The notes beneath the pieces were generated by a model. The model searched no databases, had not been told where the DNA came from, and saw nothing but the letters and a program-made list of their open reading frames with translations. A stretch of 27,528 bases of DNA from the IMG/VR virus record IMGVR_UViG_3300037245_004851, positions 1 to 27,528 of that record, one strand, 5' to 3'. The stretch comes from a virus. The translations under genes and the position numbers were made by a program. Of the stretch, positions 2,104 through 27,528 are shown piece after piece. Within the stretch, counting starts at the first letter, position 1. Each line of letters opens with the position of its first letter.

Positions 2104-2116
2104 AGCAGCCCCCTCC

Positions 2117-3133: not shown

Positions 3134-3142
3134 CGTCTCCTC

Positions 3143-3574: not shown

Positions 3575-3575
3575 G

Positions 3576-6319: not shown

Positions 6320-6339
6320 CGCCCACAGCTCGGCCCATC

Positions 6340-6687: not shown

Positions 6688-6697
6688 CAGCCCCTCC

Positions 6698-7147: not shown

Positions 7148-7148
7148 G

Positions 7149-7463: not shown

Positions 7464-7473
7464 CGCCACCCCC

Positions 7474-9239: not shown

Positions 9240-9248
9240 GCTGCCTCC

Positions 9249-9530
9249 CTACTTCGTGATGGTGCCCTGCGGCTCGGGCTTGGTCTTCTCGGCCTTGTAC
9301 AGCTTGGCCACCTTCCGCTTCACCAGCTGGGCGGCCACGGCCTTGTCGAAGCCCGCGATCTCGCCTGCACTGTAGCCGCCACTGGAGGCGGTGAACACCA
9401 CCGGCACCAGGTTGGGCGGGCTGGCCCGTAGGTGAGAGTCACGCACCCCATCATTCGGATCTGTTTTCACGGTGGCCGTCTTGGCCTTTACCACCGCAGG
9501 CTTCGGCGCAGCTGCCTTCTTGTTCGCCAT
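9249..9530 (-). CDS. Small Lys/Ala-rich protein downstream of the capsid gene
   Basis: I place the start at ATG 9530 (MANKKAAAPKP) because GGAGGTTGAG precedes it directly; the same frame is open further upstream but without a good site. The protein has 92 residues: a basic Ala/Lys/Pro-rich N-terminal tail of about 30 residues, then a small domain ending in a helix that reads FDKAVAAQLVKRKVAKLY. Short proteins of this shape often follow the major capsid gene in siphophages. They may be decoration, DNA-packing or connector accessory proteins, but no function is established here. Confidence 0.7.
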   Translation of the reverse strand: MANKKAAAPKPAVVKAKTATVKTDPNDGVRDSHLRASPPNLVPVVFTASSGGYSAGEIAGFDKAVAAQLVKRKVAKLYKAEKTKPEPQGTITK

Positions 9531-9540
9531 CTCAACCTCC

Positions 9541-9577
9541 AAGGTAAAGGGCGGGCGGGAGCAGGTAGCCCCCGCCC
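9541..9577 (-). terminator. Stem-loop after the major capsid gene
   Basis: On the minus strand a seven-pair GGGCGGG/CCCGCCC stem (9553-9559 with 9571-9577) extends inward by two more GC pairs across one mismatch, leaving the five-base loop 9563-9567. It is followed by GCCCTTTACCTT. It lies in the 61-base gap right after the capsid stop codon. The U-tract is short, so it may be a partial terminator or an mRNA-stabilising hairpin. Either would raise capsid expression relative to the downstream connector genes. Confidence 0.5.
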
Positions 9578-9591
9578 ACCAGGTTAAAAGA

Positions 9592-10785: not shown

Positions 10786-10797
10786 GGTGCCCCTCCT

Positions 10798-11835
10798 TTA
10801 CTCCGGCAGCTTGCCGGTGGTTGCGGTGACTACTTCCTCGGTCGCGGCCCGGACGATGGCACGTACCTCATCCTCCGTCATCTCGGCAGCCGGTGCCGCT
10901 GGCTCCTCGCCAGCCTTGGCCTCCATCGCCTCGGTGATCTTGCCCGCTATGGTATCGGGCAGGGCTTCCAGCCCAGCCTCCAGCCCAGCCACGGCCACGG
11001 TGAGCGCCTTGATTGCTTCTTTCATGAGCGCCTCCTCAGTTTCGGTTAGCGTTTCCTCGGCAGGTGGCGCAGCCCCAGCCGGTGCTGGCTCCTCGGTAGC
11101 CTTGGAGGGTGGTGCGGCGTCGCCGGGTGTGCCCGTCTCGATCTGAGTCGGGGCGACAGCACCAGCGGCCTTCCGCATAGCCTCCACGGTTTCCCGTGGC
11201 AACCACAAGGCGACCCGATCAGATGCCGGGTCGTCGAGAATCTTTTCAGCCCATTCGATCATGGGCTGCAGGTCAATGCCTTCAGCCTTGGCGGCCACCA
11301 GCGCTTCGGGGTTGGCAGGCACCGGCACTATGGAGTGCTCCAGCAGTTCCTGCCTGCTGAAATCGAAGCCCTTGTGGTCGTCGTTGTACACCCACTCGCG
11401 TGGGCGGAAGCCCACCGAGGTGGCCCGCAGGAACTTGCCCCGCACCAGCTGGTAGACCATGTATCCGTGTGGGTTGACATCCTGTGGTGTGAAGCGATCG
11501 GTGGCCACCAGCTTATCGCCCTCCACGCCCACCTCCACCGCCTGCGCCACCGGCAGGCCACCGTAGTCGTGGCCGTACAGCACCACCGGGTTCTTCTTGT
11601 ACTGGTCCAGCTCCCACCCATCCACCTGGATGATGTCGTCCTCGCGGTCGATAGTCCCGGTTGAAATTATGAACTTGATATCGGCCATGCCCGTGGTGGG
11701 GTCGGCCTCCTTGGCGATCTCGATCACAGCCGGGAACAGCTTCACCATGCCCGGCACCTCGGGCAGCAGGTCGCCGGGCTGTAGGTTGCCCACCCGCTGC
11801 TTCCACTGGCTCCTGGTCAGTAGCTTGCTCATCAT
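10798..11835 (-). CDS. Prohead maturation protease, S78-type, with long C-terminal extension
   Basis: Residues about 50-185 form a phage prohead protease domain. The probable catalytic His is in VLYGHDYGG (residue 89), the Ser in ATSVGF (residue 140), and a third acidic residue lies in the RQELLEHSIVPVPANPEA segment (163 or 166). The enzyme should cut the capsid delta domain during head maturation. The remaining 150 residues are Ala/Glu/Pro-rich and helical. Such C-terminal tails can act as internal scaffold, but this is an inference here. AGGAGG precedes two consecutive ATG codons; spacing favours the second (11832) over 11835. The gene lies between portal and capsid, as in HK97. Confidence 0.9.
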   Translation of the reverse strand: MMSKLLTRSQWKQRVGNLQPGDLLPEVPGMVKLFPAVIEIAKEADPTTGMADIKFIISTGTIDREDDIIQVDGWELDQYKKNPVVLYGHDYGGLPVAQAVEVGVEGDKLVATDRFTPQDVNPHGYMVYQLVRGKFLRATSVGFRPREWVYNDDHKGFDFSRQELLEHSIVPVPANPEALVAAKAEGIDLQPMIEWAEKILDDPASDRVALWLPRETVEAMRKAAGAVAPTQIETGTPGDAAPPSKATEEPAPAGAAPPAEETLTETEEALMKEAIKALTVAVAGLEAGLEALPDTIAGKITEAMEAKAGEEPAAPAAEMTEDEVRAIVRAATEEVVTATTGKLPE

Positions 11836-11850
11836 CTGCCTCCTATCGTC

Positions 11851-14232: not shown

Positions 14233-17200
14233 GACGCACCTATCGTCGCCGCCACCGCAGCCATGCTCAGCCGGGCGGTGCCGGTCTTGACGATGGCCCC
14301 GGTGCGGTAGCCGGTGATGGGTGGCTCGAAGATCATCATGCCGTGCAGCCGTACCTGCCCCTCGCCGCCTTGATCCCAGATCCGAATGTCGTACCAGAAC
14401 GACCCCTGCCGGTTAGCCTGCTCCGGTGTTATCTCGAACCGCACCTTGCGGGCGGCCAGATCGTGCACCGTGCCCAGCACCTGGAAGGCGTAGTGATCCA
14501 CGTCAGGCCACTGGTCGCTGTGCACCGTCAAGGCGAACGTTGAGCCGCCGATGCTCTCGGCTATGGGGTCGCCGTCGGCGTCCACCAGCTGGATGTCGAT
14601 GGGATTGGTGTCGTACCGGAAGCGTTCTATATCTTCCCGTGTGGTCGTCATCGCGTAGACCTCCACTCTGATCGTATCGTCTGCGATCGCCACCGGGATC
14701 GTATCGTCTGCTATTTCTACCAGGATCGGCAGCGTGAGATCGAAACCTGGCGGCTCGCCGGTTATGTTGGCCGCCTGCCCGCGCAGCACCACGGTGCCGG
14801 TGGTAGCCCCCACTAGAGCGGGTGTGATGATATCAGCCGCCGCTCCTAGCAGCTTCACCGTGCCGGTGCCGCACTGCACCAGCTGCTCGGCGTTGATGTT
14901 GGCGGCCACCCCCAGCAGCTTCACGGTGCCGGTGGTGGTGGTGACGATCTGATGACCGCCGATGACCGCACGGACACCGTTCAGCTTCACCGTGCCTGTG
15001 GTAGCGAACACCGTCTCGTCATGGAGAATGGTCGCGGCGATGCCGCGCAACTTCATAGTGGCGGTTGACGCCTGGACGGTGACGCCGTTGAGGACGGTGG
15101 CCTGAATCCCAACCAGCTGAAGGGTGCCCGTCGCGGCCTCGACGATCTGATCGTTGGATATGGTTGCGGGTACACCTGCCAGCACCAACGTGCCGGTGGC
15201 GGCGGGTACCAGCTGCCCCGCGCCTATGGTGGCCCGTATGCCTGCCAGCGCGAGGGTGCCGGTGGCCGCCTGGACGGTCTGCCCTGCCGCTATGTTGGCG
15301 GCCACGCCGTTGAGCTGCAGCGTGCCGGTGGCGCACACCACTGTCTGCCCGACGAGAATATTGGCCTGCACCCCAGCGAGCACCAGGGTGCCGGTGGCGG
15401 CCACCACCGTCTTGTCGTTGAGCACCGTGGCCTGGACGCCAGCCCACCCGTGGGTGCCGGTGGAGGCACCTACCGTCTGCCCGGTGAGTATGGTTGCGGT
15501 GACGCCCGCCAGCTTCACGGTGCCGGTGGCGGCCACCACCTGGTGGTCGTTGCTGATGGCAGCCTGGACGCCCACCAGCGACAGCGTGCCTGTCGCCGCC
15601 TGTACCAGCGCCTCGGCGTTGATGGTGCTCTGCACCCCGCTGTGCACCAGGGTGGCGGTGGTGGCTTGTACCAGCTGCCCCGCTGCTATGTTCGCTTGTA
15701 TCCCTACCAGCTTGAGCGTGCCCGTGTTGGCAACCACCGTCTGCCCGGCAGCGATGTTCGCCTGCACCCCGCTGAGCGCGAGCGTGCCGGTGCTGCACAC
15801 CACCGTCTGAGCGTTGCTGATGGTGGCCGCGATCCCGCTCAGTACGATGGCCGCGGTGGTGGCCGCCACCTTGGTGGCCGCGTTGATGTTCGCTGCCACC
15901 GGGCTGTGCGCCAGCGTGCCGGTGAAGGCCACGACGTTCGACGCCGCGTTGATGCCAGCCTGCACACCCGCCACTGCCAGCGCCGCGGTGTTACACGCGA
16001 CGGTCTGCCCAGCCTTGATGGTCGCCTGGATGCCATTCAGCTCCAGGGCTGCCGTGAAGCATTCGACAATCGCCCCGCCGATATCTTTGATTGATCCCCA
16101 GGTTAGGAACCCGCTGGTGTTGAGCTGGTTGTGGTAGTTCGCATCCCACCACGCGACTGACCTGCCAGTGGTGTGCAAACGAAACTCTGATATTTCAACG
16201 TCGCTACATTCGCCGGTATCAGCGAAACCAGATCCGAAGCGGAAAACGCGATCTGGTGAGGTGGTTGGAACGGTGGTCTGACTTTCGGCTGCTCCATCCA
16301 TGCGTATATAAGCAACCGTCCCGATTCGATAGAACATCGCATGGTGATAGTTCGTGTTATCGGGCCACGGACTAACAGAATTAACTCCGCTACTCGGCCA
16401 GAATCCGCCATAGTTTGAGCCGCCGCTTCTGACATAGACAGCCGGTTCGTAGGTGCCTGAAGCGGCGTATGAATCCCATGTTCCAGTGTCGCTGACGCGC
16501 TTGATTAGAGCCTCATATGCAAATGGACCTGTACCGATTCCGTGCGTGATCGTTGCCGATGTGCTGCGAATGTCGTCGCCGTCGAAGTAAGCGTGTTCGC
16601 CAAGCGGCCCGCCCGCCTGCCCTACTGTCGGATCGCCCGCCGTGGTGGTATCCACGTCATATTCATTGCTCGTTCTATCAACCCAATCGCGGAAAGGCCA
16701 CACCGCCTCATGGCCGCTGTCATAGGCGTTGTGCTGCCCGTAGGTGTCACCGACGGCAGGCTGCGATGCGCCGGTCATTCCCCACCACATATAGATGATG
16801 GTGTCGCCAGAGGACGAGACGGCTGGCACCTTGACAGCCGCCTCGCAGGTTGCATTCGCCGGGGTGTTGTCGGTAGCCCACGCTCGGATGTCGCAGGCCA
16901 GCCGACTGTTGCCTTCCTCGTCTGACGAGAATCGAATGTCACCACCGCCGTCCAGCGAGGGCCTGGTGCCGTCCGCGTCCAGCGGCCCGTTGGCCTGCGT
17001 CAGTACCGCCGCGAACGCCTGGTCGAGGTTCATCGTCCAGTCGGTGAGGTCGGCAGAGATGTCGTCCTTATTGATCGTGATCGGCAAGCGGTAGAGGGCA
17101 CCAGGGTAGCCGTAGGCGGCAAGCTCGATGTCGTTTGTAACGAGGTGGGTAGTTACTCGGCCCCCCGCCGTAGATGTTTCATTCTGGCTGTCTGTCGCGC

Positions 17201-17555
17201 TAACCTCCTCAACGCCATTAACCTCAACGCTAAGGTCTGGCCCGTTGAAAATAATCCGTACGGTGTATTCAGTGTCATCGACGAATACGCCCGTTGCAAA
17301 GTCTAGCGTTGTCCAGCCGTCTATCGGGTGTTGCTTCTGAAGTTGTATTCTGTCGCTATCCCAATCCGGGGCGCACCCAACACCGAATTTATCGTTCCAA
17401 TTTTCACGACGAAATTCAACTGCTACATCGTCCTCCCCGGAAGTGGCCTCAGTAGTAAAGGTAAACTCAATCACTCCATTAGCGGGGCAATCGAAGTTCG
17501 TGCCGTCCGGGGGTTGACTTAGAACGGTTACGCGGTCAATAGCGCGGAGGGCCAA
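14229..17555 (-). CDS. Giant repeat-containing virion/adhesin-like protein (DUF2341-like + lectin-like + 22-residue repeats + BppU-like)
   Basis: The protein has 1108 residues and starts at TTG with TAGGAG seven bases upstream; that TAG is the stop of the previous gene. Residues 1-145 look like a beta-sandwich (concanavalin-like). Residues about 153-300 match the DUF2341 pattern: YRLPITI, then DIRFSSDEEG, YMWWG and DSGHEAVWPFRDW. Residues about 335-475 look like a LamG-type lectin fold with YEALIKRV, HHAMFYRIGTVAYIRMDG and VEISEFRL. Residues 501-940 are twenty exact-length 22-residue repeats. Residues about 968-1085 resemble a BppU-like baseplate domain, and the last 18 residues are again a partial repeat. 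The likely role is surface or carbohydrate binding. The N-terminal coding DNA is less GC-rich: I count 49 percent at 17341-17460 against 67 percent at 15301-15360 inside the repeats. Confidence 0.8.
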   Translation of the reverse strand: MALRAIDRVTVLSQPPDGTNFDCPANGVIEFTFTTEATSGEDDVAVEFRRENWNDKFGVGCAPDWDSDRIQLQKQHPIDGWTTLDFATGVFVDDTEYTVRIIFNGPDLSVEVNGVEEVSATDSQNETSTAGGRVTTHLVTNDIELAAYGYPGALYRLPITINKDDISADLTDWTMNLDQAFAAVLTQANGPLDADGTRPSLDGGGDIRFSSDEEGNSRLACDIRAWATDNTPANATCEAAVKVPAVSSSGDTIIYMWWGMTGASQPAVGDTYGQHNAYDSGHEAVWPFRDWVDRTSNEYDVDTTTAGDPTVGQAGGPLGEHAYFDGDDIRSTSATITHGIGTGPFAYEALIKRVSDTGTWDSYAASGTYEPAVYVRSGGSNYGGFWPSSGVNSVSPWPDNTNYHHAMFYRIGTVAYIRMDGAAESQTTVPTTSPDRVFRFGSGFADTGECSDVEISEFRLHTTGRSVAWWDANYHNQLNTSGFLTWGSIKDIGGAIVECFTAALELNGIQATIKAGQTVACNTAALAVAGVQAGINAASNVVAFTGTLAHSPVAANINAATKVAATTAAIVLSGIAATISNAQTVVCSTGTLALSGVQANIAAGQTVVANTGTLKLVGIQANIAAGQLVQATTATLVHSGVQSTINAEALVQAATGTLSLVGVQAAISNDHQVVAATGTVKLAGVTATILTGQTVGASTGTHGWAGVQATVLNDKTVVAATGTLVLAGVQANILVGQTVVCATGTLQLNGVAANIAAGQTVQAATGTLALAGIRATIGAGQLVPAATGTLVLAGVPATISNDQIVEAATGTLQLVGIQATVLNGVTVQASTATMKLRGIAATILHDETVFATTGTVKLNGVRAVIGGHQIVTTTTGTVKLLGVAANINAEQLVQCGTGTVKLLGAAADIITPALVGATTGTVVLRGQAANITGEPPGFDLTLPILVEIADDTIPVAIADDTIRVEVYAMTTTREDIERFRYDTNPIDIQLVDADGDPIAESIGGSTFALTVHSDQWPDVDHYAFQVLGTVHDLAARKVRFEITPEQANRQGSFWYDIRIWDQGGEGQVRLHGMMIFEPPITGYRTGAIVKTGTARLSMAAVAATIGAS
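14652..14666 (-). promoter_or_regulatory. Possible internal ribosome binding site in the 1108-residue gene
   Basis: GGAGG at 14660-14664 lies eight bases before an in-frame ATG at 14651. Initiation there would give a separate 140-residue protein beginning MTTTREDIERFRYDT, which is exactly the BppU-like domain plus the terminal partial repeat. The spacing is within the normal range. Whether it is used is unknown. Confidence 0.4.
14736..16055 (-). repeat. Twenty tandem 66-base (22-residue) coding repeats
   Basis: The reading frame here encodes twenty successive 22-residue units with no insertions or deletions, 1320 bases in total. The consensus is roughly TGTLxLxGVxATIxxGQTVxA. The opening T-G/A-T/A and the G-V/I/A at positions 8-9 are the most constant. 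Units differ at many positions, so this is an old repeat under length selection, not a fresh slippage product. The alternation of hydrophobic residues suggests one beta-hairpin or solenoid coil per unit. Confidence 0.95.
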
Positions 17556-17565
17556 CGGTTAGCTC

Positions 17566-18051
17566 CTAAACGTTGAACAGTGAATTCAGAAATTCCGGTG
17601 AGTGGTTGCTGATCTTGACCGGTGCGCCCTCGCCCCTGCGGACGTAGTACGACGCCCAGGCAAGGCCCGATGCACCATCGTCTTCGAGGATCGAATACAC
17701 AACCATCTCCCACCGCTCCGAGACGTAGTGAATCTGGGCGGCCTGGTAGCTGTTGGGGTCCGCGTCGATGGCGGTGCGCATCCAAGAGTAGAGCGCGTTG
17801 GGTGAAACGTTCGGCGTGGTCTGCGGCTCGGCGTCCTTGTAGTACGCCACCTCGCCAGCCCCGCCCTCATCCAGCACGTAGAACGTGATGGACTTCTTGA
17901 GCGCCGCATCACCACGCACCTCCCACACCGCTTGCTGGTACCACAGCACCACACCCACGTCACCGGATGGCGTCACGTCAACGGGGTCGCCCACCAGCGA
18001 CATGATGCCGTCGCGACCCGCCAGGTCAACGAGCAGCTCTGCCTTCGTCAT
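17566..18051 (-). CDS. Hypothetical protein, 161 residues
   Basis: The start is ATG with GGGGGTG upstream; the stop TAG forms part of the ribosome site of the next gene, so the two are coupled. The protein mixes strands and helices, with paired aromatic segments (VVLWYQQAVWEV, then ALYSWMRTAIDADP, then RWEMVVYSILEDD). It has no signal peptide, Cys motif or membrane segment. I do not recognise the family. Lying between two virion-like proteins, it is probably structural or an assembly factor. Confidence 0.7.
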   Translation of the reverse strand: MTKAELLVDLAGRDGIMSLVGDPVDVTPSGDVGVVLWYQQAVWEVRGDAALKKSITFYVLDEGGAGEVAYYKDAEPQTTPNVSPNALYSWMRTAIDADPNSYQAAQIHYVSERWEMVVYSILEDDGASGLAWASYYVRRGEGAPVKISNHSPEFLNSLFNV

Positions 18052-18064
18052 GGCACACCCCCGT

Positions 18065-18508
18065 CTACACGTTCACTTGGCTGGTGAAGATCCCGGTGGC
18101 ACCCCACTGCACTGTCACGTCGCCGGAGATCAGCGACAGCGGCCCGCCTAGTTCGACGAAGGCCACCGCGTTCTTGGAGGCTGCGGTGTCGTCATAGACG
18201 ATGCCCCAATGGGCGTCGTCGAAGCCTGCAGCGTCCTGGCTCCATGTCACATCATCCGCGTCGAAGGTGGTGGTGTCGCCGGAGAGGACCCACGACACGT
18301 TCGCCAGCGCCTGGCCGCCCGCGGTGTAGCCGGTGCCCGACACCTCGTTGCCGCTGTAGTCCGACCACGTAGGTGTGGCGTCGGCAGCGGTGGGTGGCGT
18401 GGTGTCGTCGATCAGGCCCAGGTTGAACGTGTCATTGTCCAGGTCCACCGTGCCGTCTCCGATGATTTCAGATGTCGCATTGAACAGGGTTACATCGCCA
18501 GTCGCCAT
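18065..18508 (-). CDS. Virion-associated protein of the common MATGDVTLFN-type phage family
   Basis: The protein has 147 residues and starts at ATG after TTGGAGGTGAGCG. It opens with MATGDVTLFN, then DGTVDLDNDTFNLGLIDDT, then the NEVSGTGYTAGGQALANV segment and a FDADDVTW segment. This layout (short opening, LDxDTxxxxLxD, NEVxGTGYTxGGxxL, FDADDxxW) recurs in many phages in tail, neck or fibre loci. It is a small beta-rich protein of undefined function. It is the first gene after the terminator-like hairpin, so it would lead the structural transcription unit unless transcripts read through from terminase. Confidence 0.75.
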   Translation of the reverse strand: MATGDVTLFNATSEIIGDGTVDLDNDTFNLGLIDDTTPPTAADATPTWSDYSGNEVSGTGYTAGGQALANVSWVLSGDTTTFDADDVTWSQDAAGFDDAHWGIVYDDTAASKNAVAFVELGGPLSLISGDVTVQWGATGIFTSQVNV

Positions 18509-18839: not shown

Positions 18840-20327
18840 CTACCAGGCCACGTTGCCCCCACGCTCCCGCGCCCACCAGGCCAGCACCACGGCGTCGGCC
18901 TTGTCCGGGCTGCGCCCCAGCCGCGCCTTGATGATCTCCTTGGGTTCGATCAGGATCCTGCCGCCCTTGATGCTCCACCTTGGCGACAGCATCTCGGAGC
19001 GCAGCTCGCTGTCCGGTGGCAGCGCCATCGTGCTGTGCCTTGGGTCCAGCGCCTCACGGAACTGCCAGTAGGCACCCGCCCGCACGTTGGCCATCTTGTA
19101 CTTGCCGCTGCGGTCTGTGATCTCAGTACCCGCCCCGAAGTTGACACCATCCACCAGCGCCCCCAGCTCCCGCAGCACATCGTAGGGCGAGCTGCCGACG
19201 CCGATCACGTCCAGCCCAATCACCACCGCCTGCTCGCTGCCGGTGGTAGCAGCCACCACTGCCCGCGCCACGTCCACCCCCTCGGGCGTCTCCTTGCCAG
19301 GTATCAGCTTGATGTTGTCGAACCATGCACCGTGGAGTGGGGCCAGCGTGGTGCTGTCGCGGCCACCACGGGCCACGTCCACGCCCAGCGCAGTCATCGG
19401 GCCTGGTTGTATGGTGCCCGCCTCCCAGCGCAGCACAGCGGCGTCGTACCACTCGCTCGGCACCACCTGCCACTCGTCGTCGTCCACCGACGCATCGAAG
19501 GAGCCGTACAGCATCTGGGAGCGCAGCGGCTCGGGTAGCGACTGGATGACCGCCAGGTAGTCGGCATCGGCTGCCAGGTACGGGTTGTCGGCGAGCAGCG
19601 CAGGGATGAAGGTACGGCTGCGCGGGTACACCACCTCATTATCCAGCTCCACCGGCTGCGGCCCGTCCACCTCGGTGTCCGTCTTGCCGTCCCTGGTGGT
19701 GATGAACCACCGCAGCTCGCCGGGCTTGGCGGGGTTGTGGTGGTTCTTATCGAGCCACGGTGCCCAGTACTCGATGACCCATGCGCCATCGCTGTCAGTG
19801 GGCGGGTTGCCGCAGGCCACCACCCGCACCCGCTGGTCGGGTAGCGCCGTGCGTGCCCACGTCTTCAGGTAGACGAAGATCGGCCTGGTGAAGTGGCATA
19901 TCTCATCGAAGCCTTTCAGATCATGCGGGCGGCCCTGCCAGCGCACCTTGTTCTGCTCGTGGGGGCAGCTGCCGAACTGCACCTGCCTGCCCCCAGGCAT
20001 GGCCAGCCTGCCGGGGCTGCCGCGCTTCAGCTTGCCGGTCGCGCCCACGATCTCCACCACCCGGTCCATGAGGTCAGTTAGCTGCGGGTACTCGCGACGG
20101 AAGATCACCGAGCGGGTGTGCGCCTGCACCCCCAGGCCCAACAGGAGATCGCTCTTGCCACCACCTGCAGCCCCGCCGTAGAACAGCTCATCAGCTTCTG
20201 ACAGGTAGGCGGCAGCCTGCGGCCCCTTGTTTGGTCGCCACAGCACTGGCCCCTCGTCTGGGTCCAGGCCGTCAGCTAGGACCGTCAGGGCCTGCGACAA
20301 GGCACCTGATCTCGTTGGCGATAGCAC
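18840..20327 (-). CDS. terL: Terminase large subunit (packaging ATPase and nuclease)
   Basis: The protein has 495 residues. The start is GTG with AAGGAGG six bases upstream, which decides the start even though it overlaps the small subunit gene by 56 bases. Walker A is GGAAGGGKS (residues 51-59), and the Walker B acid pair is FDE (140-142, in KGFDEICHF). A CGNPP coupling motif lies at 172-176. The RNase H-like nuclease domain shows the expected acids: GVDVARGG (Asp 317), GLDVIGVG (Asp 373) and SPDKADA (Asp 475/478). The enzyme translocates DNA into the prohead through the portal and cuts genome ends. Confidence 0.95.
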   Translation of the reverse strand: MLSPTRSGALSQALTVLADGLDPDEGPVLWRPNKGPQAAAYLSEADELFYGGAAGGGKSDLLLGLGVQAHTRSVIFRREYPQLTDLMDRVVEIVGATGKLKRGSPGRLAMPGGRQVQFGSCPHEQNKVRWQGRPHDLKGFDEICHFTRPIFVYLKTWARTALPDQRVRVVACGNPPTDSDGAWVIEYWAPWLDKNHHNPAKPGELRWFITTRDGKTDTEVDGPQPVELDNEVVYPRSRTFIPALLADNPYLAADADYLAVIQSLPEPLRSQMLYGSFDASVDDDEWQVVPSEWYDAAVLRWEAGTIQPGPMTALGVDVARGGRDSTTLAPLHGAWFDNIKLIPGKETPEGVDVARAVVAATTGSEQAVVIGLDVIGVGSSPYDVLRELGALVDGVNFGAGTEITDRSGKYKMANVRAGAYWQFREALDPRHSTMALPPDSELRSEMLSPRWSIKGGRILIEPKEIIKARLGRSPDKADAVVLAWWARERGGNVAW

Positions 20328-20958: not shown

Positions 20959-21471
20959 TCCGATGATCCTGACTTCGGTTGCCAGTGCCTGCACCAGCCT
21001 GTTCAGTGGTGCGTCCTGGTTGTACGTTGTCTCAGGCAGCGCGTTGTCATACTCGGCCACCAGGCTCACGTTCAGGTAGGCGGTGGCCAGGCACACGAGC
21101 GTCTCACCCGATCCGCTCGGTACCGCCACCTGGTTGTGCTCCCGCAGATCCACACCCGCGCCCACCAGGCGGGTCGCCAGCGCCTGCCCTATGTCACGCA
21201 TCATCCACACGGGCAGGTGGCCGCTGGTAGCGTCGAAGTGATCGGGCCACGCTACTGCGATCTCAGTAGGCGTCCACCAGCGATCGGTCTGCAGCGCTCC
21301 ATACGGCCCCACCTCCACGATGTTCAGGCCGCAGCCCCGCAGCGCCTTGGCCGCGTTGCCACAGGTGAAGCACACCACCCGCAGCGGGCGTTGAGTTTCG
21401 TCCAGGTACTGGGCGATGATGTTAGCCCTCGTCCGCTTCTGCGCCAGGATCGCCGAATTCAGTCTGTACAT
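20932..21471 (-). CDS. Hypothetical protein, 179 residues
   Basis: The frame is open much further upstream, but there it only shadows the methyltransferase gene. I choose the ATG at 21471, preceded by GGGAGG, which leaves a 50-base overlap with the end of that gene. The protein begins MYRLNSAILAQKRTRANIIAQ and has a compact CFTCGNAAKALRGCG segment, which could hold a metal or a nucleotide. A VPSGSGETLVCLATAYLNV stretch then resembles a GxG-type loop followed by a hydrophobic helix. No family is recognised. It lies between a DNA methyltransferase and terminase, so a DNA-related role is possible. Confidence 0.65.
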   Translation of the reverse strand: MYRLNSAILAQKRTRANIIAQYLDETQRPLRVVCFTCGNAAKALRGCGLNIVEVGPYGALQTDRWWTPTEIAVAWPDHFDATSGHLPVWMMRDIGQALATRLVGAGVDLREHNQVAVPSGSGETLVCLATAYLNVSLVAEYDNALPETTYNQDAPLNRLVQALATEVRIIGPHGEAVTS

Positions 21472-22855
21472 CCTCGAATACCTCCCGCACTGCCTTGGGG
21501 TCGCCCTTCCAGAACACCAGCACGTCCTGGTGGGTCTTGGCCATCTTGCGCCACTTCCGCATGGGGCCACCGGCACGGATGGCGGCGCTGCCCACTGGTG
21601 TGATGAGCACCGCCTGGTTGTAGAGGTGCAGGCCCATGTCCGTGAACATGGCATAGGTGTCGGCTGTGAAGCCACGGTAGCCGCCCACCTTGTCTCGGAT
21701 GTCGCCAACCTTGACGACAAGGAAGCGGTTGTCGCGCAGCCTGGCCACCACCTGATCGAACACGCTGCGGTACCACTCAAGGAACTGCGCATAGGTGTGG
21801 TGGGTGCTGCCGTCCCTGGCCTCGTTGCTGTACACCTCTAGGTCATAATACGGCGGGCTGGTGAACACGAGGTCGGCCTTGGCCCGCTTGGGCACCGTGG
21901 CATCGAACACCAGGCTGTCGCCCGTGATCCACTTGGGCTTCGGACCTGCGAACACCCGCGCATCGGCAGCGCCCATCTGCCGCTTGTTAGTGGCCACCTG
22001 ATCGCCCCGCAGCTCCACCCCCAGGTAGGGCATGCCCATATAGCACGCCACCATCCCCTTGGTGCACTCGCCAGCGAATGGGTCCAGCACCGTGCCGCCC
22101 TTGATGTTGAACCACCTGTACACCAGCTCGGCCAGCACCGGGTCGAACACCGAGCCACCAGTGCCTGGCCCGAAGCCGGTCAGGTAGCCTATGGTGCCCT
22201 CGTTGGTGTTGACGGTATCGGGTAGGTTCTCTCGCCCCTCCTCGCCATGCACCCCCACCGCACGCCATGCCCGCTTCCGTGCCTTCCAGTAGCCCTGTCG
22301 AGCATCCAGCGTGGTGAAGGGTGGCACCCCGAACTCCTCCAGCAGCCTGCCCCTGCCCTCCTTGGCCGATATCTTGGCCGCCTCCTTGTCCAGTGCCAGC
22401 ATCAGCGCGTCAACATCATCGCCATCGAAGCCGGTACCCTGCAGGGTATCCTCCTCGGCCATCTTCTTCAGCACCTCAACCAGCGCCGCGTCATCCCAGC
22501 CGCCCAGGTTGGTCAGCCGGTTGTCGGCGATCAGGTATGCCTCGGCCTCGGCATCGTTGGCGAAGGTGATGCCGCACACCACCGGCACCAGCCAATCGCC
22601 ATCGGCTGCCACCAGCACCCGCTCGGGTGGGGGCTGGCCGTCTGCCTTGAGCTGCCGTAGCGCCTCGGCCCGCCCGTGCCCGACCACGATGCGCCCGGTG
22701 GCATCGTTGCGGACACCTGGTGCCACGAACCCGAAGCGATCGTAGCTCTGAATGATGGCTCCAATGTCGTGGTCCTTGGGGTTGCGGGGTGCGCTCTCAA
22801 CCAGCGCCAGCGGGATGCGGTCGATGTAGATCTCGCCCTTGCGTCTCCTCGCCAC
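21422..22855 (-). CDS. ParB-like domain fused to DNA methyltransferase
   Basis: The protein has 477 residues, starting at GTG with GGGAGGG just upstream. Residues about 8-155 form a ParB/sulfiredoxin-like N-terminal domain: VVGHGRAEAL (58-66), then EAEAYLIADNRL (103-114). Residues about 185-450 form a class I methyltransferase with motif I LDPFAGECTKG (257-267) and catalytic motif IV TSPPYYD (332-338). The S-P-P-Y form is most often seen in N4-cytosine enzymes but also in some adenine enzymes, so the target base is open. Such fusions occur in many phages near terminase. They may protect phage DNA from host restriction or mark it for packaging. No cognate restriction enzyme is encoded nearby. 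Confidence 0.9.
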   Translation of the reverse strand: MARRRKGEIYIDRIPLALVESAPRNPKDHDIGAIIQSYDRFGFVAPGVRNDATGRIVVGHGRAEALRQLKADGQPPPERVLVAADGDWLVPVVCGITFANDAEAEAYLIADNRLTNLGGWDDAALVEVLKKMAEEDTLQGTGFDGDDVDALMLALDKEAAKISAKEGRGRLLEEFGVPPFTTLDARQGYWKARKRAWRAVGVHGEEGRENLPDTVNTNEGTIGYLTGFGPGTGGSVFDPVLAELVYRWFNIKGGTVLDPFAGECTKGMVACYMGMPYLGVELRGDQVATNKRQMGAADARVFAGPKPKWITGDSLVFDATVPKRAKADLVFTSPPYYDLEVYSNEARDGSTHHTYAQFLEWYRSVFDQVVARLRDNRFLVVKVGDIRDKVGGYRGFTADTYAMFTDMGLHLYNQAVLITPVGSAAIRAGGPMRKWRKMAKTHQDVLVFWKGDPKAVREVFEDVQTEFGDPGAEADEG

Positions 22856-22864
22856 GTGCCCTCC

Positions 22865-23068
22865 CTATGCTGCCCCGTGTACGGCGGTCAGGAACCTGGT
22901 GCCGCACCGACGGCATTCTACATCGCGCACCCGCTCCATCGTCACCGCCACCCGCACCCGGCTGGCGCACCGCGGACACACCACTGCCACCCGTGCACAT
23001 GCGCGTGCTTCCTGTAGCTCCTCGCGGGCCAGTCGTTCGGCTTCCAGATACGCCATCTGAGTGATCAT
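22865..23068 (-). CDS. Small zinc-ribbon protein
   Basis: The frame is open up to 23200, but the two nearest sigma-54-like promoters lie inside that extension (23129-23188), so I prefer ATG 23068, or ATG 23056 four codons later. The 67-residue product has a helical N-terminus (AYLEAERLAREELQEARA) and a zinc ribbon with CPRC and CRRCG. It is the first gene downstream of the leftward promoter cluster and is followed after nine bases by the methyltransferase gene. Such ribbons bind nucleic acid or RNA polymerase in many phages; the function here is not known. Confidence 0.6.
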   Translation of the reverse strand: MITQMAYLEAERLAREELQEARACARVAVVCPRCASRVRVAVTMERVRDVECRRCGTRFLTAVHGAA

Positions 23069-23128
23069 CCTGGTACAAGTATCGCACCCGATGTCATGGT
23101 GCGCAACCACCAGCAACCTCGGCACCTT

Positions 23129-23143
23129 GCAAGAGCTGTGCCA
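23129..23143 (-). promoter_or_regulatory. Sigma-54-type promoter, leftward (nearest to the operon)
   Basis: The minus strand reads TGGCACAGCTCTTGC followed by A. GG and GC are separated by exactly ten bases, and both halves match the -24/-12 consensus TGGCAC...TTGCW. The expected start point is near 23117, about 50 bases before the zinc-ribbon start codon. The element lies inside a GGCAC-N12-GTGCC inverted repeat (part of 23121-23143). Confidence 0.65.
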
Positions 23144-23173
23144 CCAGGGCATTCTGACCCATTCTGATGGACA

Positions 23174-23188
23174 GCAAGAGCTGTGCCA
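23174..23188 (-). promoter_or_regulatory. Sigma-54-type promoter, leftward (exact copy)
   Basis: This is an identical 15-base copy of the element at 23129-23143, 45 bases upstream of it: TGGCACAGCTCTTGC followed by T, again with GG-N10-GC spacing. The expected start point is near 23162. Tandem copies suggest either two start points or a strengthened binding region. Confidence 0.65.
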
Positions 23189-23238
23189 GATGAGCGTCAT
23201 GCGACCTAATCGCTACCGACCGGTGGAATAGCCCCTTC

Positions 23239-23253
23239 GCAACTCCTGTGCCA
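23239..23253 (-). promoter_or_regulatory. Sigma-54-type promoter, leftward (third element)
   Basis: The minus strand reads TGGCACAGGAGTTGC followed by G. The spacing is again GG-N10-GC, but the inner sequence differs from the other two leftward copies. So the conserved positions are those contacted by sigma-54, not the whole 15-mer. The expected start point is near 23227. Confidence 0.55.
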
Positions 23254-23260
23254 TGGGCTG

Positions 23261-23307
23261 GCACCTACAGAACAGGCCCTGTCGCGTGCCCGGAGGGAGG
23301 TAGGTGC
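23261..23307. promoter_or_regulatory. Inverted repeat between the divergent promoters, possible activator site
   Basis: GCACCTAC at 23261-23268 is repeated inverted as GTAGGTGC at 23300-23307, enclosing the palindrome ACAGG-C-CCTGT (23272-23282). It lies between the leftward promoters (ending at 23253) and the rightward one (starting at 23401), where a shared enhancer-binding activator could sit. It could equally be a structured RNA element. Confidence 0.4.
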
Positions 23308-23400
23308 AAGCGTAGAGGTTGCTCACTGTCAATGTCCGTGACACACCAAAGAATGCTTCTGCCTGATTGCAAAGGGGTTGCAAGGAATCTGAGAAACTTC

Positions 23401-23415
23401 TGGCACGCTCTTTGC
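23401..23415 (+). promoter_or_regulatory. Sigma-54-type promoter, rightward
   Basis: The plus strand reads TGGCACGCTCTTTGC followed by T, preceded by C. This is a full match to the consensus TGGCACG-N4-TTGCW with GG-N10-GC spacing. It points to the right, against every gene in the window, so the transcript would be antisense to 23508-23915 or a non-coding RNA. Like the element at 23129, it sits in a GGCAC-N12-GTGCC inverted repeat. A GGGGC/GCCCC hairpin lies about 20 bases downstream. Confidence 0.6.
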
Positions 23416-23507
23416 TTGGTGCCTGTTTCCGGGGCGAAAAAGTGGCCCCTGGAAGGCGTCGCGACAGCGCCAACCAGAGGCCAGGAGAACACCAGATCAG
23501 TATATGT

Positions 23508-23915
23508 TCAGGATGCTTCGTCGGCAACCCCAGGCCCTGATATGAGGGCGAACTCAGCCTGTAGTCCTGGCGCTCGTTTCTTGTAGAAGATCACCATGGC
23601 CCCAGCCCGTGCCTGTAGCGAATCGTTCTCGGCTGTGAGCCTGTCGCTCCTGGCCTTGCTCGTGGCCAGGGTGTGCCGCAGCCTGGCGTGATCCTTCTTC
23701 GCATCAACCAGCTCTGCCCGCAGCCGCTCGGCCTCCCGCTTCTGTTCATCGAACCCGCCGTCTGATTCTATCCGTTGCAAGAGCAGCTTTTCGATCTCGT
23801 TCAGTGCCTGGCCAACAGCAGTAGCACCACACGATGAGCAGGTGCCGTCGTCGTCGATCTTGCAATTGATCCCGTGCTCAGGACAGAACGTGTACACCCT
23901 GTAGTCGCCGCTCAT
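23508..23915 (-). CDS. Zinc-ribbon plus coiled-coil protein
   Basis: The protein has 135 residues; its start overlaps the previous stop as ATGA, with a weak G-rich ribosome site. The N-terminal 35 residues carry a zinc-ribbon-like set (FCPEHGINC, then CSSCG). Residues about 38-105 form a long coiled coil (EQKREAERLRAELVDAKK and following). The layout suggests a dimeric or scaffold-type binding protein. No known family is recognised. It is the last gene before the sigma-54-like control region, and the rightward promoter would produce antisense RNA across it. Confidence 0.7.
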   Translation of the reverse strand: MSGDYRVYTFCPEHGINCKIDDDGTCSSCGATAVGQALNEIEKLLLQRIESDGGFDEQKREAERLRAELVDAKKDHARLRHTLATSKARSDRLTAENDSLQARAGAMVIFYKKRAPGLQAEFALISGPGVADEAS

Positions 23916-24142
23916 GGCCCACCCCCAGCCGCCACGGCTGGTATGCCTGAGGCGCTCCAGTCGATGTCATCCCAGCCCAGCACCCGGTAGCGGTGCTGTA
24001 TGTCGGTGTGACAGATCACGTTGCCGATGTCCTCTCGCCGGTACACCCGCACCAGCATGGCCACCCGCTCACCACCCGCCAGATTGAGGTGCCCCGATGG
24101 GTCGCTGAACACCACCGCCCCGATGCTGATCTTCTCAGGCAT
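23912..24142 (-). CDS. Small hypothetical protein, 76 residues
   Basis: I use the ATG at 24142 (MPEKISIGAVVFSD), preceded by GAGGTGG; the longer open frame upstream only shadows its neighbour. It overlaps the previous gene by eight bases. The protein looks like a small beta-barrel (VAMLVRVYRREDIGNVICHT, then YRVLGWDDIDW), has no signal or membrane segment, and is not recognised. Confidence 0.65.
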   Translation of the reverse strand: MPEKISIGAVVFSDPSGHLNLAGGERVAMLVRVYRREDIGNVICHTDIQHRYRVLGWDDIDWSASGIPAVAAGGGP

Positions 24143-24431
24143 GGTCCACCTCGGTGCCAGGGTAGGCCACGCCCGACTGGTTGCACAGCCGCACCATGCC
24201 GTGCTCCGATATGCGATCGGCCCTGTACAGGGCGTGGGTGGCTGGCCGCCACGCCAGCGTGCCCTTGGGCAGCACCTGCCCGGTGATGGCGCACTCATGC
24301 TCGTTGTGCATCTTGACGGGGTGCCACACCGCCCGCTGGTTGTGACGCTTGATGGCCGTGTCTTCGTTCTCCAGGGCTACGAGGCCAGGCCCCAGCACAG
24401 CCCCCACTCGATACGTTCCTCGAAATCCCAT
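24135..24431 (-). CDS. Hypothetical protein, 98 residues
   Basis: The start is ATG after GGGAGGGCACA. The middle of the protein reads NEHECAITGQVLPKGTLAW followed by YRADRISEHG. This resembles a small half-zinc-ribbon domain of the C-x-x-TG-x-x-L/I-x-KG type found in accessory phage proteins, but the second Cys pair is missing here. No function can be assigned. It lies in the accessory operon between the resolvase and a 76-residue protein. Confidence 0.65.
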   Translation of the reverse strand: MGFRGTYRVGAVLGPGLVALENEDTAIKRHNQRAVWHPVKMHNEHECAITGQVLPKGTLAWRPATHALYRADRISEHGMVRLCNQSGVAYPGTEVDHA

Positions 24432-24443
24432 TGTGCCCTCCCT

Positions 24444-24920
24444 TCACCAGCCCAGCATGCGGCCAGCGGTTAGCCCTATGAAGGCGGCGTCAATCTCGTC
24501 CTGCTCCCACATGGGTGCAGTGGGCCACCACTTGCCAGCAGCCGCCCGCACGGCGTCCTTGCTCGCGTTGCCCTTGCCGGTGGCGAGCTTCTTCCACGTG
24601 CCCACCGGCACGCCCGTATAAGTCACGCCGACCTCCTCGCAGATGCGGGTCACGGTGGCGGTGATGCCACCGTACAGCTGGGCCGCCATCGTGCCCTCGT
24701 GGCGCTTCACGTCCTCGATGGCCACCAGGGTGGGCAGCTGCGCCATCACCTCTAGCAGCCACGTTTCCAGGCGCACGAACATCATCCCGCCGCCTTCGAG
24801 CCGCCCATGCTGCAGGGTCCAGACGCCGCCCTGTAGCAGCGCACTGCCAGGGAACCCCACCTTGGCCCAGCCGAACGCCGAGCCGGGGTCCAGCCCCAGC
24901 ACGACGCGCTCAGTTGTCAT
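24444..24920 (-). CDS. RuvC-type Holliday junction resolvase
   Basis: From the ATG at 24920 the protein has 158 residues, close to the 173 of E. coli RuvC. The RNase H-fold catalytic acids appear at the expected places: Asp 11 in VLGLDPG, Glu 69 in LVAIEDVK, and Asp 141 and Asp 144 in EQDEIDAAFIGL. A GKGNASKDAVRAAA segment (115-128) matches the RuvC region before the last acids. The enzyme would resolve branched DNA during recombination or before packaging. A stretch of Met codons upstream (to 24941) offers alternative starts. It overlaps the 80-residue gene by 11 bases. Confidence 0.85.
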   Translation of the reverse strand: MTTERVVLGLDPGSAFGWAKVGFPGSALLQGGVWTLQHGRLEGGGMMFVRLETWLLEVMAQLPTLVAIEDVKRHEGTMAAQLYGGITATVTRICEEVGVTYTGVPVGTWKKLATGKGNASKDAVRAAAGKWWPTAPMWEQDEIDAAFIGLTAGRMLGW

Positions 24921-25152
24921 CGGCAGGCTCATCATCATCACCCACGGCCACCATGGCGGTGTGCTTCACTTCCACCTCCAGCTGCAGCATGATCAGCCGG
25001 TCGCCGAACGTGTCACCTGCCTGGTCCGCTATGGCGTCGATGATCTGGATAGAGATCCGCTGCAGCATGGCCTCGCCTGATGCCCCAGGTATCATCACCG
25101 CCGTCTCGCCGGGCTGTATGTCGCGGATCTTCCTCGTGATCTTATAGCTCAT
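24910..25152 (-). CDS. Small hypothetical protein, 80 residues
   Basis: The start is ATG after GAGGAGGAATT, overlapping the upstream stop as ATGA. The protein begins MSYKITRKIRDIQPGET and ends in an acidic tail (DDDEPADDN), with a strand-helix-strand core. It has no recognised family. The overlap with the Tat-signal gene upstream and the resolvase gene downstream puts it in the same transcript. Confidence 0.65.
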   Translation of the reverse strand: MSYKITRKIRDIQPGETAVMIPGASGEAMLQRISIQIIDAIADQAGDTFGDRLIMLQLEVEVKHTAMVAVGDDDEPADDN

Positions 25153-25718
25153 AATTCCTCCTCGTTGGTTCGGTCATGGGCGTCCACGCCAGGGTAGAAC
25201 AACGGCTCACCGATGATGTCGATTGCCACCGCCGTGCCGTTGATACCATGCGGCCCCACCGTCTCCTCAACGTTGGTCACGAACCCCTCGAACACCCACC
25301 TGGCATCGGGTAGCCCAGCCATGTAGTCCTCGGAGTACACCAGCCTGAACATCGTTGGGTTCTTGGTCACCAGCAGCTGGAAGATGTCACGGTTGATGGG
25401 TGCCGGGCAGTGGAACGTGATGCTCGTATCGACCATCACCGCCACCCGCTCAACCCATGCCGCATGGGTGTCGAGATCTGTCATCGGGCCGACCGCCGAC
25501 TGCACCTCACCCACCCGGTGCCACTTGCCGTCCACCTCGTACTCCAGCCGGGTGTCGTGGTGCCCGCCGCCAGTAGGCTGGACGGGTGGGTCGAACTCGG
25601 GCTGCTCCGATTCGTACACCCCGTGCTTCATGACGCGCCCGCTGATCGCTGCCGGTGCCGCGCCTATGGCCGCCAGCATCCCCAGGAACCCGCGCCTGCT
25701 CAGCCCCTTGCTCGTCAT
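25149..25718 (-). CDS. Tat-signal protein with a tail-tube-like body
   Basis: I start at ATG 25718, four bases after GGGAGG; the frame's four earlier codons contain that ribosome site. The protein has 189 residues. Residues 1-28 are a twin-arginine signal: SRRGFLG (7-13), a hydrophobic Ala/Ile/Leu stretch, then AAPAAISG. Residues about 68-178 align by eye with this phage's tail tube protein (6698-7147). Shared positions include E/GP/TH/W/RV, then TF, KNP-VYS, W-FE-F-T, P-GI and I-GEP...PGV, and the W-to-GEP distance is 29 in both. A tube-like domain behind an export signal is not something I know from phages. It may act outside the cytoplasm, for example at the cell surface. The signal and alignment are seen; the role is inferred. 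Confidence 0.8.
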   Translation of the reverse strand: MTSKGLSRRGFLGMLAAIGAAPAAISGRVMKHGVYESEQPEFDPPVQPTGGGHHDTRLEYEVDGKWHRVGEVQSAVGPMTDLDTHAAWVERVAVMVDTSITFHCPAPINRDIFQLLVTKNPTMFRLVYSEDYMAGLPDARWVFEGFVTNVEETVGPHGINGTAVAIDIIGEPLFYPGVDAHDRTNEEEL

Positions 25719-25960
25719 AAATCCTCCCATCTCTTGCGCAGTGGTGTCAGCCGGTGCATGTAGCCATCCTCATCCCAGACGCACAGGGCCATGCCGTGCT
25801 CGTCAGCCTCGTCACATTGGCCGTCGCCCTCGGTGGGGAACGATACGGTGAACATCAGCGGCTCGCCGCTGCTGACCTCAGTGGTGGGGGCGGCGGGTTG
25901 CTTCACGAGCGGGGCAGCACCTACCGCCGCCACTGCCGCCAGGAACCTGCGCCTGTTCAT
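25715..25960 (-). CDS. Small Tat-signal protein, 81 residues
   Basis: The start is ATG 25960, with AGGA seven bases before it and an ATGA overlap with the upstream stop. The N-terminus MNRRRFLAAVAAVGAAPLV is a textbook twin-arginine signal (RRRFL plus an Ala/Val hydrophobic core), followed by a Pro/Ala linker. The remaining 55 residues are acidic with two Cys (GDGQCDEADEHGMALCVWDE) and may form a small beta domain. The signal is very similar to that of the next gene, with which it overlaps, so the two are probably co-exported or derived from a duplication of the signal. The function is unknown. Confidence 0.75.
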   Translation of the reverse strand: MNRRRFLAAVAAVGAAPLVKQPAAPTTEVSSGEPLMFTVSFPTEGDGQCDEADEHGMALCVWDEDGYMHRLTPLRKRWEDL

Positions 25961-26205
25961 TTCGGTTTCCTGCGGTGCCGGTCGGCATGCGGGCACGTGG
26001 CGAAGTGGCTCACCCCCACCTTGGCCAGCGGCTCATCGGTTGGCACCTGCACCACGATGGCGGGCTTGCCGTACACCTTCAGCACCACCAGCTGCCCCGG
26101 CAGCGGGCACCATGTGGGGCGAGGCTCGCGGTCGATGGGCATGCTGGACCCGGTGTCCATCTCCACCCAATCAATCAGCGCCCCGCAGCTCTTACACGTC
26201 GCCAT
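25957..26205 (-). CDS. Zinc-ribbon protein, 82 residues
   Basis: The start is ATG after GGAAGGAGGCTGGCG. The protein opens with CKSCGALIDWVEMDTGSSMPID, the common CxxCGxxIxW...GxxMPxD form of small phage and bacterial zinc-ribbon proteins. A later Cys/His set (WCPLPG, and HFATCPHADRH near the end) could complete the metal site. It overlaps its neighbours on both sides. Function is unknown; nucleic-acid or protein binding is plausible. Confidence 0.75.
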   Translation of the reverse strand: MATCKSCGALIDWVEMDTGSSMPIDREPRPTWCPLPGQLVVLKVYGKPAIVVQVPTDEPLAKVGVSHFATCPHADRHRRKPK

Positions 26206-26458
26206 CGCCAGCCTCCTTCCACCGCCCGGTGGCTGCCTCGATCACCTCCAGCAGCGCAGCCACCTGGCTCCAGTCCAGCTCCCAGCCACCCACCTCCAGC
26301 CCTTGCCTGCCGCCGTGGCCGTCCAGGTTGATGACGCTCATGTCGTCGCCGCAGCCGTCGTCGGTGCCGCCTATGGTGTACGCCTCCTCAATCTCGTCCT
26401 CTGACTGCCGCCTGGTGAACGACCAGTCGCCCACCCGTGCGCTCATAAGGTGGGCCAT
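26192..26458 (-). CDS. Hypothetical acidic protein, 88 residues
   Basis: I use the ATG at 26458, which overlaps the previous stop as TGATG and follows GGAGGCAGGG; an ATG four codons later is possible. The protein is acidic (SEDEIEEAYTIGGTDDGCGDD) and ends in a helix (LDWSQVAALLEVIEAATG). It has no Cys motif beyond a single Cys, and no signal peptide. No family is recognised. Confidence 0.65.
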   Translation of the reverse strand: MAHLMSARVGDWSFTRRQSEDEIEEAYTIGGTDDGCGDDMSVINLDGHGGRQGLEVGGWELDWSQVAALLEVIEAATGRWKEAGDGDV

Positions 26459-27021
26459 CACCCTGCCTCCAGCGCCGCCTTGGCGATGGCCCGCATGCCC
26501 TGCACCACCAGCCGCACGTCGTGCACGTCGGCGCACATGGTGGCAGGTTGCACGTCGTAGGCCATGACAGCCCGCAGGGCGGCCCGCAGCCGGTTGGCCT
26601 CCCTGCGGTGCCCTCCGTAGGTTGCCTCGGGTGACGGCCAGCCTGGCCGCTTGTCAGCCCAATCCATCGGGGCCAGCGCCTGGTACACCGCGGCAGAGCA
26701 GCCCGAGCGGGTTTCACGTACCGCTCCAGTCTTGCGGATGCGGCCTTGCGTGCGCAGCTCACCGACGCGGGTCGAGCAGCTTGAACGGGTCATGCCCAGT
26801 GCCACCTCGCATTCCTCGCTGGTTTGCCCCAGGCTCCAGGCCCGGCTGATGTGCTCCCATATCCGCTGACGCTGGTTCTTGGATTCGCCCACCATGCTCT
26901 CGGCGGCGGCCTTGCTGGTGCCACTGCCCACCGAGTACGGCAGGCCCACCCGCCCGTGCGCCTTGCTGTCAGGTTCCGGCTGCCTGGGCATGCCCGGCAG
27001 TACCGGCTGTCTCTCATCCAT
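26458..27021 (-). CDS. Winged-helix DNA-binding protein
   Basis: The start is ATG 27021 after GGAGGAACACA; the longer open frame upstream shadows the coiled-coil gene. The protein has 187 residues. After a Pro-rich start (LPGMPRQPEPD), residues about 53-120 form a winged helix: RIWEHISRAWSLGQTSEECEV, then LGMTRSSCSTRVGELRTQG, then a wing with IRKTG. The C-terminal 60 residues are helical with a VMAYDVQPATMCADVHDV segment. It could be a replication initiator or a regulator. The DNA-binding fold is a good reading; the target is unknown. Confidence 0.75.
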   Translation of the reverse strand: MDERQPVLPGMPRQPEPDSKAHGRVGLPYSVGSGTSKAAAESMVGESKNQRQRIWEHISRAWSLGQTSEECEVALGMTRSSCSTRVGELRTQGRIRKTGAVRETRSGCSAAVYQALAPMDWADKRPGWPSPEATYGGHRREANRLRAALRAVMAYDVQPATMCADVHDVRLVVQGMRAIAKAALEAG

Positions 27022-27304
27022 TGTGTTCCTCCTGTTCTTGCTGTGCCTCCCAGTGGGCTTCCTCCTCATCGCGCTGCTGCTGCTGGCGCTCCTGCCGTTG
27101 CCGCTCCATGTCCAGTTCGTGTTCCTCCTCCTCCCGCCTGGCATCCTCGGCCACCTTGTTCCACCGCTTGGTGTTGATGCGGCTGGTGATGCACCGCTCG
27201 GCCTCGTATCCCATGTCGTACTTGTGCCGCCTGTGGTGTTCCTCAAGATCGCCCAGTGAGCAGCGGCAGGTGTAGCTCATACAGCGTGGGCACTCACAAT
27301 TCAT
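27014..27304 (-). CDS. Cys-rich N-terminus plus Glu/Gln-rich coiled-coil protein
   Basis: The start is ATG 27304, four bases after GGGAGG, overlapping the previous stop as ATGA. The first 20 residues hold six Cys in MNCECPRCMSYTCRCSLG, a compact metal-binding cluster. The rest, from about residue 45 to the end, is a highly charged helix rich in Glu, Arg and Gln. The protein has 96 residues. No family is recognised. The gene continues the run of metal-binding accessory proteins. Confidence 0.65.
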   Translation of the reverse strand: MNCECPRCMSYTCRCSLGDLEEHHRRHKYDMGYEAERCITSRINTKRWNKVAEDARREEEEHELDMERQRQERQQQQRDEEEAHWEAQQEQEEHNG

Positions 27305-27528
27305 GCATCCTCCCATCTGATGCCAAGGGTGGCGAACAGGGCCGCCTCCCTGGCGTCCGCGTAGTTGACGATGCCCACCGGCACATCGGGCTTCCAGTCG
27401 CCAGGGTAGACCCCAGCCATGAAGGCGTAGCCCCCGCACCCCCCGGCACACCGCACCCACAGGCAGACCCCGCGGTTGCCAGTCAAGTCGCCCTCGCTGA
27501 TCGGGTAGCGCACCGCCCACCCGCACAT
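27301..27528 (-). CDS. Hypothetical protein, possibly truncated at the window edge
   Basis: The frame runs to the right edge, where an ATG happens to be the last codon; the true start may lie outside. At least 75 residues are encoded, with Cys residues in GVCLWVRCAGGCGGYAF and the sequence PVGIVNYADAREAALFATLG. It ends in an ATGA overlap with the next gene. It is not recognised. Confidence 0.55.
   Translation of the reverse strand: MCGWAVRYPISEGDLTGNRGVCLWVRCAGGCGGYAFMAGVYPGDWKPDVPVGIVNYADAREAALFATLGIRWEDA

Follow-up and report, generated by a model that had tools for sequence, protein, structure and literature searches.

Gene layout and control gap

The window, meaning the whole stretch of DNA that was analysed, is a 27,528-bp virus record from IMG/VR in which every gene, as called by a coding-score method, lies on the minus strand. 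A non-coding control gap of about 440 bp lies between the upstream (early) and downstream (late) gene blocks and holds four short elements of the sigma-54 type. The features of the window are, from left to right:

1..18508, minus strand: remaining leftward late block, with portal/head morphogenesis, protease, major head, connector, tail and tape measure genes
18840..20327, minus strand: terminase large subunit
21422..22855, minus strand: ParB-N / DNA methyltransferase fusion, the next gene in the leftward block
22865..23068, minus strand: 67-aa ORF with two CxxC pairs, zinc-ribbon-like, the first ORF downstream of the leftward elements
23069..23507, no strand: non-coding control gap, about 440 bp, separating the early block (upstream) from the late block (downstream), both on the minus strand
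23129..23143, minus strand: sigma-54-type element 1, TGGCACAGCTCTTGC, with the C of -12 at 23129
23174..23188, minus strand: sigma-54-type element 2, TGGCACAGCTCTTGC, the same 15-mer as element 1 and 45 bp upstream of it
23239..23253, minus strand: sigma-54-type element 3, TGGCACAGGAGTTGC, 65 bp upstream of element 2
23401..23415, plus strand: sigma-54-type element 4, TGGCACGCTCTTTGC, rightward
23499..23527, minus strand: sigma-70-like promoter match TTGCCG-17-TATACT at the gap's right edge, a consensus match only
23508..27528, minus strand: upstream block of small genes, including a RuvC-like resolvase at 24444-24941

The original prediction placed four such elements at these positions and on these strands in one long non-coding gap, and this was confirmed, with all four being exact matches to TGGCAC-N5-TTGC. 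The 67-aa ORF gave Pfam zinc-ribbon matches under the cut-off, and its alternative longer start, ATG 23200, would overlap elements 1 and 2. A search of positions 22700-24000 of the window against Rfam gave no match. Two other places in the late block drew attention. At 5996-6338, just before the tape measure, two overlapping minus-strand ORFs may be a frameshifted tail assembly chaperone pair, and the 1,108-aa protein at 14229-17555, between the terminase and portal genes, had no PHROG match and only a sub-threshold match to Pfam DUF2341.

Relatives and host

Searched with the window's terminase and capsid, IMG/VR gave no close relative, only three distant loci. Among the terminase relatives are phages of Acidovorax, Limnohabitans, Bordetella and Caulobacter, with 41-46% identity, and cyanobacterial phages near 37-43%. 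Capsid relatives with E <1e-60 were found three times in 399 genomes of a betaproteobacterial MAG's order and once in 398 genomes of its phylum, in a genome shared with the order set. The sequences give hints of a host that may be Burkholderiales-like. An exact cluster was found neither in Acidovorax AP1 (first 50 of 55.7 kb) nor in Limnohabitans DC33, both terminase relatives. Although PQ492659.1, the record of Limnohabitans phage DC33, is 39 kb long and encodes at 5132-6664 a hypothetical protein matching the terminase large subunit of the window, it is filed under Inoviridae.

The four elements and chance expectation

The GG and GC pairs stand ten bases apart in all four elements. The published sigma-54 consensus is YTGGCACG-N4-TTGCW. 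Measured against the extended form YTGGCACR-N4-TTGCW, the window has TGGCAC-N5-TTGC in 4 of 4 elements, R at position 7 also in 4 of 4, W after TTGC in three (element 3 has G there instead of A/T) and Y before TGG in two. Three of the four are aimed at the late block; the window has the head-to-tail form plus one opposed copy, and contains no facing dyad. From the -24/-12 geometry, element 1 would start transcription near 23117, 49 nt before the ATG at 23068, and starts are predicted near 23162 for element 2, near 23227 for element 3 and near 23427 for element 4, whose transcript would be antisense to the gene at 23508-23915. At 23367-23381, in the stretch that separates elements 3 and 4, TTGCAAAGGGGTTGC comes within two mismatches of the motif on either strand.

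Under a trinucleotide Markov model, 0.15 exact matches to TGGCAC-N5-TTGC are expected per window, and four are seen in the 440-bp gap. The Poisson probability of this is about 1e-12, a figure that ignores possible duplication of copies 1 and 2, which are identical over 15 bases and so need not have arisen independently. Such a duplication would favour chance similarity in a GC-rich phage, an explanation that is nevertheless very improbable given the expected count and given that controls with N4 and N6 spacers are far rarer than N5 in the virus collection. It had also been claimed, from a scan by eye, that the window holds no comparable match elsewhere. Both searches bear this out: no exact match occurs elsewhere in the 27,528 bases, and a sigma-54 weight matrix, proposed earlier as a check, ranks the four elements as the top four (15.7-18.1) above everything outside the gap, where the best score is 12.9. 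Matches with at most two mismatches are not enriched in the whole window (65 against 66 expected), which confines the signal to the four sites.

Tandem clusters in other viral contigs

IMG/VR was scanned for two head-to-tail TGGCAC-N5-TTGC elements 25-55 bp apart. Such pairs occur in at least 120 contigs, compared with 14 for an N6 spacer and 11 for an N4 spacer in the same scan, and three elements in a row, as in the window, occur in 90. Among the matches listed, 114 of 129 N5 clusters (about 88%) lie mainly between genes, against a coding density of 0.82; the N6 control clusters, all except one or two, lie inside genes. By shared DNA or flanking proteins the loci listed form about 52 groups. 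A profile of the positions that the search left free, weighted over 46 groups among the matches listed, has T/C before TGG at 79%, G/A after TGGCAC at 99% and A/T after TTGC at 84%. At L101:1964-2251, ten head-to-tail elements, mostly 26-28 bp apart, stand before a rightward block that includes a tail-fibre-like gene.

Taken together, the N5 counts against N4 and N6, the intergenic placement and the consensus-like free positions are good evidence, at the level of sequence, for a widely shared host factor with sigma-54 specificity, and the sigma-54 identity of the elements seems likely. The original -24/-12 reading holds up in this respect, as the class fits that specificity (exact spacing, Y, G/A, W) in dozens of unrelated phage groups and Pseudomonas phages keep the GG and GC pairs. 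The elements might instead be repeats for another protein, such as origin iterons or terminase pac/cos sites, that resemble -24/-12. Like such repeats, they adjoin terminase and replication genes, are arranged repetitively and are neutral in orientation, and two of the window's copies are identical 15-mers. Even so, this seems unlikely: about 46-52 groups among the matches listed, differing in neighbouring genes and G+C, share the same 10 fixed and 3 preferred positions, and the five-base middle is free within families, which is typical of sigma-54 sites and usually not of iterons.

Facing dyads

Facing elements were sought with the pattern TGGCAC-N5-TTGC-N3..20-GCAA-N5-GTGCCA, and such dyads were found in at least 120 viral contigs. 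Their gap is narrow: among the matches listed, it measures 3-7 bp in 133 of 145 dyads, and the mode, weighted over 43 groups, is 4-5 bp. Gaps of 0-2 bp were seen at one locus in the entire collection. The same pattern had six matches in bacteria and archaea (one genome for each of 85,000 prokaryote species), and at least three of the six (L237, L238, L234) differ from the phage dyads in being perfect or near-perfect palindromes. Elements also occur as alternating facing arrays with a period of about 43-54 bp, at L098:55-227, L187:61-243, L091:418-596, L076:3661-3779 and L174:16-160.

Two other explanations of the dyads were considered and rejected. The facing pairs do not form an RNA hairpin, because their two N5 parts are not complementary and match at chance level, about 1.5 of 5. 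Nor are they the SrpA palindrome of phage K5, whose site is NTATC-N-GATAN (PMC5945682). The preferred gap of 4-5 bp would suit repeats bound by another protein, but a range of 3-7 bp would rotate the half-sites of a dimer.

Counting from the -12 position, two facing elements 3-7 bp apart each have their predicted start inside the other's spacer, and we infer what this geometry may mean. The two sites of a facing pair overlap so tightly that simultaneous occupancy by two polymerases is hardly feasible. As a tentative proposal, tailed phages of rpoN-bearing hosts may repeatedly have evolved sigma-54 control regions, including phage-specific facing sites 3-7 bp apart, which would form a compact, mutually exclusive, activator-gated bidirectional switch tied to a host enhancer-binding protein.

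Pseudomonas phages and PAK_P4

The dyad is carried by Pseudomonas phage vB_PaeM_C2-10_Ab02, a Pakpunavirus (locus L158), and 135 Pseudomonas phage records match the dyad region. Pseudomonas, the host of these phages, carries rpoN. Fourteen Pseudomonas phages were aligned, some of them distant ones from P. putida, P. protegens and P. plecoglossicida. In 14 of 14, each half of the dyad keeps its GG and GC unchanged, the spacers vary, and the allowed change is C to T at position 6, giving TGGCA(C/T). Directly to the right of the dyad, at L158:10200-10290 and in the 13 other Pseudomonas phages, a block of non-coding sequence (CTAAATC..CAGGCTCCCTCCGTGTTTGTCTCCGGTGCTCGG..) shows strong conservation and may be an RNA or origin element.

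In the 93-kb genome of PAK_P4 (NC_022986) there are only five exact elements, at 55671, 55823, 55842, 67531 and 68012, of which the first stands as an extra element beside the dyad at 55823-55856. Each of the five falls wholly or partly inside one of two antisense RNAs annotated from RNA-Seq, as16 and as17; PAK_P4as16 is a minus-strand RNA annotated at 55650-55850, overlapping the dyad. A review gives the function of as16 as undetermined (PMC12197685). A second sigma-54-type cluster, between 67500 and 68700 (67531, 67733, 68012, 68465), coincides with as17 around an HNH endonuclease gene.

This overlap bears on the alternative that sigma-54 polymerase does bind the sites, yet that they are not late-operon promoters: they could be decoys tying up host sigma-54 polymerase, or the starts of short antisense or regulatory RNAs. 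The location of all five exact elements in or over as16 and as17 favours such a role. It carries little weight, however, since the RNA ends are given only to the nearest 50-100 nt, as16 itself contains an annotated promoter (promoter_03), and the minus-strand element closest to the start of as17 is more than 600 nt away. The overlap shows only minus-strand transcription of the element regions.

Gap type, orientation and activators

Clusters favour divergent gaps. Among the matches listed, 119 of 179 gaps with at least two elements are divergent, compared with 176 of 767 among all gaps of at least 100 nt, and by length the divergent share is 66% against 41%, also among the matches listed. In L023, the representative of the largest group, the cluster lies between a replication block (primase/helicase to thymidylate synthase) and a terminase-portal block, as expected of a control region.

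Orientation tells a different story. In co-directional gaps among the matches listed, where a promoter would be expected to follow the direction of the genes, 82 elements point with the genes and 83 against them, a count that includes dyads, which are balanced by construction; by gaps the figures are 16 and 15. Purely unidirectional clusters in the first set, among the matches listed, number 9 with and 6 against the genes. An earlier co-orientation count of 50:16 was dropped as support because divergent gaps make co-orientation trivial, and 82:83 is the fairer test. The random orientation in co-directional gaps weakens a simple promoter model and favours decoys or antisense starts.

Neither the window nor the 50 records searched contained a gene for an enhancer-binding protein, and no RpoN gene was found in the 50 phage records searched, so that host proteins would be needed. 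The search for a shared upstream activating sequence or enhancer motif returned none, only homopolymer tracts and a -35-like GCTTGAC. The lack of an activator gene and of a common enhancer site in these searches also suits decoys or antisense starts, as do the near-perfect consensus and the sometimes high copy number, such as the ten head-to-tail copies at about 26 bp in L101. On the other hand, decoys need not favour divergent control gaps beside terminase and replication genes, nor hold a strict local geometry, and overlapping facing sites make a poor sponge because one occupant excludes the other. Decoys or antisense starts are serious though less probable alternatives, and an origin or packaging site unrelated to sigma-54 is less likely than these.

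Proposed mechanism

There is about an even chance that the gap in the window is a cluster of genuine sigma-54 (RpoN) holoenzyme sites, fired by a host activator into the late block. Host sigma-54 RNA polymerase would bind the elements as silent closed complexes, which a host enhancer-binding ATPase would then fire. Leftward transcription would then read into the methyltransferase, terminase and structural genes, and a single transcript would run rightward, antisense to the early block. The sequence itself, its departure from chance, its position and its place in a class that fits sigma-54 specificity in many phage groups are established. We infer sigma-54 binding, transcription, the identity of the activator and the timing; that the elements function as promoters at all is moderately likely.

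The original prediction went further and held that the late operon is run by the host's sigma-54 system. For the window this is plausible, given that all elements but one are directed towards the late block, and the gap does lie between early genes with a RuvC-like resolvase and late genes for terminase, portal, capsid and tail. The class as a whole does not demand it: orientation is 82:83, and the searches gave neither an enhancer-binding protein gene nor a common activating site. The tight overlap of facing pairs, the lack of an exact cluster in DC33 and in the first 50 kb of AP1, and the G after TTGC in element 3 also count against the sigma-54 promoter reading. The predicted link to a nitrogen, stress or surface signal is speculation.

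Significance and comparison with known systems

Among bacterial sigma factors, sigma-54 alone awaits an activator that is powered by ATP and linked to signals from nutrients, the envelope or a surface. If clusters of its sites are present in the control gaps of phages from many groups, virus production may be gated by a host signalling pathway, or the phages may sequester that pathway. The question whether transcription depends on rpoN can be put directly in common laboratory phages, with a Pakpunavirus and P. aeruginosa PAO1 or PAK as host. The facing dyad is a searchable sequence signature, frequent in virus contigs and near-absent from bacterial genomes.

Sigma-54 sites as such are known. 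In the literature searched, which covered few subscription papers, no description of clustered or facing sigma-54 promoters in tailed phages was found; the original prediction had likewise been aware of no standard tailed-phage model of this kind. The element class looks real and, within that literature, undescribed.

The closest likeness is to bacterial sigma-54 promoters such as those of glnA, nif and psp, which share the GG-N10-GC core and TGGCACR-N4-TTGCW, are intergenic and are sometimes tandem. The phage clusters differ in having no encoded activator, in reaching up to ten copies and in often facing each other 3-7 bp apart. The late-promoter systems of phages T4 (gp55/gp33/gp45), lambda (Q) and P2 (Ogr) are alike in that a gap between early and late genes governs the virion genes. 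Those systems use phage-encoded sigma factors, activators or antiterminators, whereas none such was found here and the host sigma-54 pathway would serve.

The as16 region of the Pakpunavirus PAK_P4 has a facing dyad, a further element and an overlapping minus-strand RNA based on RNA-Seq, but it precedes SprT-like and small genes rather than structural genes. Phages and sigma-54 have also met in two other settings. Salmonella rpoN mutants resist FelixO1 and Aji_GE, which was explained by glutamine and RpoS (PMC8744999). Infection by filamentous phage switches on a sigma-54 promoter through the psp (PspF) response (PMC11720261); the promoter in that case belongs to the host's psp operon and is not on the phage, while in the window the elements lie in the virus's own control gap.
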